The notes under the pieces are model-generated. The model was not told where the DNA came from and made no database searches. It saw nothing but the letters and a program-made list of their open reading frames with translations. DNA of 22,417 nt from a virus. This document shows, piece after piece, positions 1,547-14,618 of the stretch. The stretch covers positions 1-22,417 of IMG/VR virus record IMGVR_UViG_3300032050_000878, one strand, 5' to 3'. Each line of letters starts with the position of its first letter. Position 1 is the stretch's first letter. The position numbers and the translations under genes are program-made.

Positions 1547-1613
1547 TATTAGGTGTCGCATACCTATTAGCAACTTATTGCCCTTGATTTGAACCCCCAA
1601 TGCGACTGGGGGG
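1547..1613 (+). promoter_or_regulatory. structured leader: two hairpins with exactly complementary 7-nt loops (candidate kissing loop)
   Basis: Hairpin 1 pairs TAGGT (1550-1554) with ACCTA (1562-1566), with two further pairs beyond one mismatch, leaving loop GTCGCAT (1555-1561). Hairpin 2 pairs CCCCCA (1594-1599) with TGGGGG (1607-1612), leaving loop ATGCGAC (1600-1606). The two 7-nt loops are perfect reverse complements, so they could form a 7-bp loop-loop complex, or open into one long-range 7-bp stem. The arrangement lies between a TAnnTTTG box and the start of the replication gene, so it should be transcribed as that gene's leader. No T-run follows hairpin 2, so it is not a simple terminator. 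Folding is read by eye. Confidence 0.6.
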
Positions 1614-2363: not shown

Positions 2364-3015
2364 TAAACTTGAACCAGATGAATTAAAGGTTGCAGTTGCT
2401 TTAGATACAATGAGTGTGGGTAGATGCTCACCAATTGAGGTAAAAGAACACCTTAAGACCTGTATTGCTTTAAGCGGATGTCAAACACCTACAATAGAGT
2501 TATTTCAGTTTTTATGCGAATTTGTTATTAAAAACTATGGGAACTTCAAACTAAAAGAACTTGGAGTAGCTTTTGAACTTTACGCAATGGGTAAATTATC
2601 GGTTGACAAAGCGATTATGTTTACCCCTAAATTCTTTGGGGATGTGATGGCTGCATATAAGCCGATAGCTTTGCAAGTAAGACAAAAGACCTATGTAGAA
2701 CCTAAACCAGTAGAGATACCTAAAATACAAGATGATGAAATTATTGAGGCATTGTACGAAAACTGGGAGAAGTCTGCTAAAAGAGGCTGGGAGTTGCTAA
2801 ATACTATGGCTTTTGATGTACTATGGAAACGTAAAGAACTAAACAAGGAAAATCTAAGCCAAGAGAAGGCAGACCAAATAAAGAAAAAGATTATAGCACA
2901 TTACAAGGTAATGGCTAAAACACCTAAAGACTTGGAGAAATTAAATAACGAAATATTTATCAAAAACGAGTGCAAAAGATATACTTTGTACTTATTTTTA
3001 CAAAACCAATTATAG
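2290..3015 (+). CDS. probable replication-associated protein (possible helicase loader), unrecognised family
   Basis: About 241 residues from ATG 2290. The protein is soluble and mostly helical, with no cysteine cluster and no Walker motif. Visible blocks are an N-terminal helical part (ELKVAVALDTMSVG), a middle block (GNFKLKELGVAFELYAMGKL, then FTPKFFGDVMAAYKPIALQ), and a charged C-terminal half. Proteins with a 'AFELxAxGKL...SxxFxxxVxxAY' middle often follow the initiator gene in Bacteroidota phages, which makes a replication or helicase-loading role plausible, but I cannot assign a family. It overlaps the previous gene by 74 nt. An ATG at 2344 would reduce the overlap to 20 nt; 2290 was preferred for its A-rich upstream sequence. 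A strong terminator begins one base after its stop. Confidence 0.72.
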   Translation: MQQELATIANQLLQSSNLMPLEIYNKLEPDELKVAVALDTMSVGRCSPIEVKEHLKTCIALSGCQTPTIELFQFLCEFVIKNYGNFKLKELGVAFELYAMGKLSVDKAIMFTPKFFGDVMAAYKPIALQVRQKTYVEPKPVEIPKIQDDEIIEALYENWEKSAKRGWELLNTMAFDVLWKRKELNKENLSQEKADQIKKKIIAHYKVMAKTPKDLEKLNNEIFIKNECKRYTLYLFLQNQL

Positions 3016-3077
3016 CCACCTCAAGAATTAAATATTTTTAACCAAGATAGTAATTAGGGAACTTGGGGTGGTTTTTT
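3016..3077 (+). terminator. Rho-independent terminator after the replication block
   Basis: CCACCTCAAG (3016-3025) pairs with CTTGGGGTGG (3062-3071) over 10 bp with one G-U pair, and AATTA/TAATT (3026-3030/3051-3055) extends the stem inside a long loop. Six T residues follow at 3072-3077. It begins directly after the stop at 3015 and ends the early operon. Confidence 0.85.
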
Positions 3078-3083
3078 AAACTT

Positions 3084-13094: not shown

Positions 13095-14618
13095 ATGGCA
13101 CAAGAAACGTTAAAAATTACGATAACCGCTGACAATCAACAAGCGGTAAAAAATATACAAGAAACAGTTACCGCAACCCAAAAATTAGGTACTGCTTTTA
13201 AAACGTTGCCAAGTACAAGCAATCAAGCAACTAATGCATTAACAAACTTATCAAGGGTTGCACAAGATGCTCCTTATGGATTCATTGGTATTGCGAATAA
13301 CTTAAATCCATTATTAGAATCATTTCAAAGATTAAGTAAGGATGCTGGAGGTGCAGGTGGTGCTTTAAAAGCAATGGCAAGTGGTTTAATGGGTCCAGCA
13401 GGTATTGGTTTAGCTTTGGGTGCGGTTTCATCAATTTTAGTCGCATTTGGTCCTAAAATAGCTGATTTTATAAGTGGCACAAACGAAGCCACAAAAGCAG
13501 AAGATAAGTTTGCACAAAGTTTAAGTGATGCAAGAGCCGAAGCAAGTGAGACAGGAATAAGATTACAAGCATATTTGACAATTACTCAAAATGCAAGTGT
13601 AAGTGATGAAAGAAGGGCGGAGGCATTAAAAGCGGTTAAAAACGAATTAAGTAAAGTAAATAGTGCTTATGCTTCAACAATTACAAATGTTGACCAAGCA
13701 AGAGCAGCGGTTGATTTATATACACAAGCACTGGTTGCACAAGCTATAACATCAAGATATATTGATGAAATTGCTAACAAAACAATTGCTTTAGCAGATG
13801 CAAATAAAAAGATACTACAAACAGGAAGGGAATATTATGCAACATTAGAGTCAACTAAATTAGCTATTAATGGTTATGCAGATGCTTCAGTTTATCAAGC
13901 AAGTGCAATTAGCAAAGCAAAAGATGCTAATATTGATGCAAGAACGGAGGCTATTAAATTAAAGAATGGGATAATTGGTTTAAATACAGAATTAGCTAAT
14001 ACAATAACATTAGCTTTAAATAATCCATTTTTCCAATTAGATAAGGGAGCAAAAGCATTAGCACAATCAACAAAAGAAATTGCTGATAATATTCAAAAAA
14101 TAGGAGGACAACCGAGACCATTACCAGCAGATGCAGAAAGTCCTATTTTAGGTAATAAACCTACTTCTCCTGCATTACCAAATGCGCCACAAACATTTAC
14201 AGGTAATTTTAACGGAATTGATGCAGCACAACAAGCATTAGATGTGTTGGAACTTGCAAAAGCACAAGCAAAATATAACGAACAATATAAATTAACAACA
14301 GAGTTAACAAACCTACTTGCTCCAGCATTTGATAGTGTAATTCAAGCAATGGTAATGGGTGAAGATATTGGGTTAGCATTACAAGCAGCTTTTAAACAAA
14401 TAGTTATTCAGTTAGCTTCAATGGTTGCACAAGCATTATTATTTCAAGCTATTATGACTGCAATTACTGGTGGTGTTGCTCCTGCAGCTGGTGTAGTAAC
14501 TGGTGGTATGGGAATGGGAGGTGGTAATTTCTTAGGTGAGTTTTTATTAAAAGGTTCTGATTTGATTTTGGCAACTCAAAGAGCAAACAACAACTTAAAT
14601 ATTAGACGAGGCAATTAA
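13095..14618 (+). CDS. tape measure protein (short)
   Basis: Sets tail length and is packed inside the tube. Typical traits are an Ala/Gln/Lys/Thr-rich helical protein, TATQKLGTAFKTL-type early helices, Gly/Ala-rich hydrophobic segments (MASGLMGPAGIGLALGAVSS at about 95-114, and a second around residues 430-470 with VAPAAGVVTGGMGMGGGNF), and a long helical middle. At 507 residues it is a small member. Using the usual rule of about 0.15 nm per residue, the tail would be roughly 75 nm; this is an estimate. Its stop overlaps the next start by TAATG. Confidence 0.87.
   Translation: MAQETLKITITADNQQAVKNIQETVTATQKLGTAFKTLPSTSNQATNALTNLSRVAQDAPYGFIGIANNLNPLLESFQRLSKDAGGAGGALKAMASGLMGPAGIGLALGAVSSILVAFGPKIADFISGTNEATKAEDKFAQSLSDARAEASETGIRLQAYLTITQNASVSDERRAEALKAVKNELSKVNSAYASTITNVDQARAAVDLYTQALVAQAITSRYIDEIANKTIALADANKKILQTGREYYATLESTKLAINGYADASVYQASAISKAKDANIDARTEAIKLKNGIIGLNTELANTITLALNNPFFQLDKGAKALAQSTKEIADNIQKIGGQPRPLPADAESPILGNKPTSPALPNAPQTFTGNFNGIDAAQQALDVLELAKAQAKYNEQYKLTTELTNLLAPAFDSVIQAMVMGEDIGLALQAAFKQIVIQLASMVAQALLFQAIMTAITGGVAPAAGVVTGGMGMGGGNFLGEFLLKGSDLILATQRANNNLNIRRGN

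Follow-up and report, generated by a model that had tools for sequence, protein, structure and literature searches.

RNA I and RNA II of ColE1 meet through fully paired 7-nt loops that are bound by Rom/Rop, and in antisense attenuation of the pT181 type a loop contact within a replication-gene leader decides whether transcription terminates. In T4-like phages, homing endonuclease genes such as I-TevI and mobE likewise begin with RNA structure: their leader hairpins sequester the ribosome binding site, and we know of no kissing loops or terminator described for these leaders. In the guanidine-IV riboswitch (GGAM-1 or mepA motif), a kissing loop that involves the terminator hairpin gives antitermination, and it has been proposed that kissing stretches the linker and thereby blocks the outer pairs of the terminator (PMC7736828, PMC11611296). 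Its loops hold highly conserved residues that are needed for ligand binding (PMC7736828).

Here we describe a leader of about 87 nt in a viral stretch of 22,417 nt (IMG/VR record IMGVR_UViG_3300032050_000878, positions 1 to 22,417; the window). We take it to represent an undescribed cis-regulatory RNA family of phages, probably phages of Bacteroidota. Our literature search found no description of the element, Rfam 15 covariance models did not match the window at E values up to 5, and ten other loci gave only unrelated, sub-threshold Rfam matches. We propose, with about even confidence, that the leader acts in cis and that kissing between its two loops gates a terminator-like hairpin in front of the start codon. 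As in ColE1, the 7-nt loops are fully paired, and as in the pT181 type, a loop contact would decide on termination in a replication-gene leader; in contrast to both, the partners lie within one RNA and an antisense transcript is not indicated. Leaders of T4-like homing endonuclease genes likewise place RNA structure at the start of the gene, but they hide the ribosome binding site, whereas here kissing loops are combined with a terminator-like hairpin. The guanidine-IV riboswitch shares with the element two hairpins joined by a loop-loop pseudoknot and a second hairpin followed by a U-tract (here 1580-1626 and 1627-1637, a predicted terminator). However, nucleotides of the second loop that contact the ligand are highly conserved in that riboswitch and its genes encode exporters of the sugE/emrE type, whereas here all loop positions vary in a compensatory manner and the genes encode initiators, homing endonucleases, or a DNA methyltransferase. 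Because the loops vary freely and the downstream genes differ, the element is not a member of the guanidine-IV class; it may work in a similar way.

Results

The promoter box, both hairpins, the loops, and the gene start had been located before by a model that saw the sequence alone (the sequence-only reading), and all of these coordinates were verified on the window, where the two 7-nt loops are indeed perfect reverse complements. All features lie on the plus strand. The promoter box TAATTTTG (1539-1546), a -7 box of the Bacteroidota type (TAHHTTTG), precedes hairpin 1 (1550-1566), whose arms TAGGT (1550-1554) and ACCTA (1562-1566) form an AGGU/ACCU stem with one optional outer pair and enclose loop 1, GTCGCAT (1555-1561). 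A single-stranded linker (1567-1579; 13 columns in alignment A7, see below) leads to hairpin 2 (1580-1626), a long hairpin of about 47 nt. It is made up of a base GCCCT/GGGGC (1580-1584 with 1622-1626), a purine-rich internal region, and a tip (1594-1612) with the arms CCCCCA (1594-1599) and TGGGGG (1607-1612) around loop 2, ATGCGAC (1600-1606), which pairs with loop 1. What the sequence-only reading had called hairpin 2 is merely this tip. Behind the long hairpin, a T-rich tract TATTTTATTTT (1627-1637) abuts the start codon, and hairpin and tract together resemble an intrinsic terminator by prediction. The gene that follows (1638-2363; MAKRFTDTEKW...) is replication-initiation-like, matching PHROG 678 "replication initiation O-like" with E = 2.6e-4, and has relatives in 189 viral-contig stretches of IMG/VR.

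Elsewhere in the window, an inverted repeat ACGTTG-GGCGA-CAACGT (1292-1322) lies just upstream of an HTH_39 gene (1342-1536) and is a possible operator or terminator. At 3014-3083, the inverted repeat CCACCTCAAG...CTTGGGGTGG encloses a loop of about 35 nt and is followed by TTTTTT, with ATG 3084 close behind, which makes it another hairpin with a T-tract at a start codon, in this case without kissing loops.

The best-conserved sequence of the element is the linker core AACTTATTG (1572-1580), which forms the 5' foot of hairpin 2, has invariant columns in alignments A7 and A8, and is common to class A, to which the element of the window belongs, and class B (both described below); AACTTTTTG, AATTTATTG, and AACTTCTTG are uncommon variants. 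In class A, moreover, GAA faces G(G/A)A within hairpin 2. Together with a core conserved in both classes next to free loops, this would suit a structural platform, either a riboswitch or the site of an RNA-binding protein, where the kiss serves only to shape the RNA and a small ligand or protein is bound by the conserved linker core and the purine internal loop. The downstream genes, however, share no metabolic theme, and we consider such a platform unlikely, while noting that it can be compatible with kissing-gated termination.

Plain folding of the window leader gave no significant signal (z = -0.65), and since folding alone does not single out the hairpins, the case rests on comparison. Regions upstream of relatives of the gene at 1638-2363 keep this layout while the loop letters change; the pairs include GTCGCAT/ATGCGAC, GTTGCAG/CTGCAAC, GTCGGAT/ATCCGAC, GTAGGAT/ATCCTAC, and GTCGTTT/AAACGAC, as well as the swapped pair ATGCGAC/GTCGCAT. 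Alignments were built as equal-length sets, a mixed-length MAFFT alignment having been out of register. In alignment A7 (18 distinct rows, with one linker nucleotide deleted from four rows for register), 97.3% of cells were paired, compared with 32-46% in slid controls, and the score was 0.506 versus 0.207 for shuffled alignments (0 of 500 shuffles). Compensatory change was seen in all five helices, the loop-loop helix included: in four of five pairs of hairpin 1 (92% of cells paired), four of five pairs of the hairpin 2 base (100%), and five of six pairs of the hairpin 2 tip (100%), with 100% of the loop 1-loop 2 cells paired. Loops and stems of related leaders do covary, a check that the sequence-only reading had named beforehand.

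To avoid selecting on the loop match, a covariance model (R1) without loop-loop pairs was run, yielding 141 matches (72 distinct) across two sets of loci. Seventy-one of the 72 distinct elements had a perfect 7-nt Watson-Crick loop match, although for two of them (L147 and L196) the stem rule of the script did not apply and GTTGCAG/CTGCAAC was read by eye; related phages with altered loop bases remain complementary. The sole exception, L189, has lost hairpin 1. At this locus (13873-13956, minus strand), the 5' part of hairpin 1 is gone, with upstream coding sequence running in, and hairpin 2 and its tail are intact, so that the locus represents either a naturally arisen variant with one partner only or a join made during assembly. 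Across a set of 20 distinct loop pairs from both classes, 140 of 140 cells were Watson-Crick, with no G-U, against a permuted maximum of 94, the class B loops in this count having been found through their complementarity. Every loop position showed at least two Watson-Crick pair types among these pairs, and further pairs beyond the 20 involve CTAGGAA, TTGCGAC, and ATCCGAC. A geometry scan of 1.55 Mb of DNA from related phages, covering either strand, sought two perfectly complementary 7-nt loops, 30-70 nt apart on stems of at least 4 bp each. It returned only this element or its opposite-strand mirror, and because the geometry is confined in this way, the pairing is not a matter of chance. These data support the earlier suggestion that the replication-gene leader contains a kissing-loop RNA acting in cis, as the loops covary and keep their complementarity across relatives.

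A set of 67 distinct elements, selected by perfect loops, contained 14 loop pairs, with loop-to-loop distances of 45-47 nt in class A and 49-50 nt in strictly matched class B elements. Complementarity ended at the seven loop bases in 64 of the 67 on the 5' side and in 58 on the 3' side, and because it stops there, we reject the long-range stem that had been put forward earlier as the second state of a switch. All 25 distinct 7-nt loops have a G+C count of 3 or 4, and their duplex energies are narrowly spread (standard deviation, 0.95, versus 2.48 for composition-matched random 7-mers); many of these loops are related, and when only six loops with at least four mutual differences are considered, the narrow spread has P = 0.02. 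As far as the sequences tell, the loop letters vary freely while complementarity and pairing strength are retained across evolution, and the element is therefore very probably an undescribed RNA switch.

In Flavobacterium johnsoniae, position -5 is occupied by the G of this promoter box (PMC6847099). With G1546 at -5, +1 is therefore predicted at A1551, the first base of hairpin 1. Among 58 distinct class A elements, the box keeps its position, ending 8-10 nt upstream of loop 1, and the 5' arm of hairpin 1 measures 4-6 nt counted from the predicted +1. The predicted start coincides with the first base of hairpin 1, within 1 nt, in all 58 scored elements, which agrees with the earlier proposal that the transcript begins there.

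At the other end of the element, loop 2 lies 30-33 nt from the ATG in 67 of 67 distinct elements, although the genes that follow are unrelated to one another and encode mostly replication initiators or homing endonucleases. An ATG stood directly behind the T-tract in 17 of 17 kissing elements versus 9 of 64 chance matches, in a search that imposed no ATG requirement, and this adjacency disfavors a stand-alone small RNA. The tract often starts with one or two bases other than T, which speaks against a terminator. Because the tract abuts the ATG, a further promoter would not fit in between, and the gene must therefore be reached by read-through from the promoter of the element or from further upstream. 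Sequence comparison thus establishes the two stems, the contact between the loops, the constant spacing to the ATG, and the place of the promoter.

The base of hairpin 2 sits a nearly constant 10-13 nt upstream of the AUG, a spacing that fits translational control equally well. In this main rival of kissing-gated termination, the kissing complex and hairpin 2 would set the access of ribosomes to a U-rich start, with no termination involved. RNA hairpins at the start site are known to restrain homing endonuclease genes in T4-like phages, a precedent that favors such control. Initiation in Bacteroidota proceeds without a Shine-Dalgarno sequence and is tuned by structure near the start codon, which also speaks for it; on the other hand, F. 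johnsoniae favors A at -3, where the T-tract places a T, which suggests some other reason for retaining the tract (PMC6847099). Moreover, its T6-A form resembles the T-tails that follow further hairpins of these phages. On balance, we regard translational gating as somewhat unlikely.

The element is present in well over 100 IMG/VR phage contigs and precedes the replication gene in many freshwater phages. Most relatives of the initiator gene below about 66% identity showed no element; two divergent relatives (L047 and L049) have a leader in which 6- or 7-base loop matches were read by eye. When viral contigs were searched with the pattern of the conserved linker and T-tract, nearly all of the matches listed were the element, standing before many other genes. 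Named phages gave no element by BLAST, a pattern scan of cellular genome contigs gave two matches, neither of them an element, and 396 Bacteroidota genomes gave no match, a weak negative obtained with strict filters and without a positive control.

Class A comprises one element per phage record, apart from two records that repeat it at a repeated end, and precedes replication initiators of several families (PHROG matches). Alternatively, a GIY-YIG/HNH endonuclease or methyltransferase gene is inserted between element and initiator, and where an inserted homing endonuclease gene is present, the element stands before that gene. In L003, L009, L030, L032, L039, and their relatives, GIY-YIG-like or HNH genes of different families lie exactly between the element and the initiator ATG, and in L127 and L156 a DNA methyltransferase gene lies between the element and the initiator start codon. 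The cyanophage Pseudanabaena phage Pan5 (L082, 3641-4262) encodes a related initiator N terminus with an HNH gene before it, and the kissing element is absent at this locus.

Class B is found in larger phages, with up to six elements per genome, each before a different homing endonuclease gene. Its hairpin 1 is longer, and a conserved TATTTATTATAGATAG lies upstream: in L136, L152, and L182, for example, TATTTATTATAGATAG precedes loop 1 and its mirror CTATCTATAATAAA follows it, and the two may serve as promoter and outer stem at once. Six elements in one record (G007) have six different loop pairs, and three in another (G003) have three, as expected if the contacts are intramolecular; given the overall diversity of loop pairs, such differences could also arise by chance. 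That loop identity is a private address, with an orthogonal 7-nt pair of one strength for each gene, used for per-gene regulation or, in class A, for counting like genomes via the released leader, seems to us quite improbable.

The element always points toward the downstream gene. This orientation and its fixed place at the start codon, the G-U pairs in its stems, and its multiple copies per genome before endonuclease genes argue against a role at the DNA level, as replication-origin hairpins or a protein operator, even though class A adjoins replication initiators and the outer arms of class B hairpin 1 form a long inverted repeat. We hold this reading to be extremely improbable, and a replication origin in particular is disfavored by the gene contexts of class B.

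ColE1-like copy control finds no direct support. A TAHHTTTG box on the other strand within 200 nt was present in 4 of 65 elements versus 9% of random regions; a host-type antisense promoter is thus not conserved, and we reject antisense control of the ColE1 type driven by such a promoter. A copy-control system would also fail to explain class B, with several elements per genome before homing endonuclease genes. A terminated leader might instead pair in trans with nascent like leaders, so that expression would fall as genome copies rise and loop variants would define specificity groups. Such feedback would draw on loops that are self-sufficient as partners in trans, on the initiators as class A targets, and on the different loop pairs of related phages; yet a contact in cis is strongly favored by local concentration, the class B elements target homing endonuclease genes, and the lack of a conserved antisense promoter weighs here as well, making this feedback very unlikely.

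Discussion

Control of the synthesis of the downstream protein is the best reading of the element, and kissing-gated termination is favored because the guanidine-IV riboswitch is the nearest precedent. The transcript would open with hairpin 1, and as RNA polymerase advances, the tip of hairpin 2 would form and offer its 7-nt loop to that of hairpin 1. Hairpin 2 and the U-tract would constitute an intrinsic terminator immediately upstream of the start codon. The kissing loops, together with the short linker, would hinder closing of the hairpin 2 base and so let polymerase continue into the gene, leaving the start codon accessible. If the kiss is disrupted or cannot form, the hairpin 2 base would close and transcription would stop just before the AUG. 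A factor acting in trans, possibly bound to the conserved linker AACUUAUUG, might set the balance. Termination, the direction of the switch, and its trigger are the putative parts of this model.

The helix adjoining the T-tract has only 4-6 bp above which internal loops follow, which counts against termination; a simple terminator scan did not call hairpin 2 with its T-tract, and inspection by eye revealed no conventional antiterminator pairing. For class A, linker arithmetic gives about 88 Å needed versus about 88 Å available, a limit case only; in class B the linker is long enough, except where the outer part of hairpin 1 forms too. An automatic estimate of linker geometry gave inconsistent registers and was excluded as unreliable.

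The elements amount to a naturally occurring set of more than 20 kissing-loop pairs in one frame, in which sequence is free and strength is fixed. This collection provides material to test how loop-loop contacts gate termination, as well as orthogonal parts for RNA design. Initiators and homing endonucleases are classes of genes for which dose and timing matter, and to our knowledge the control of both in phages of Bacteroidota is largely unknown. Our findings suggest that phages place replication initiators and homing endonucleases under a shared form of control.
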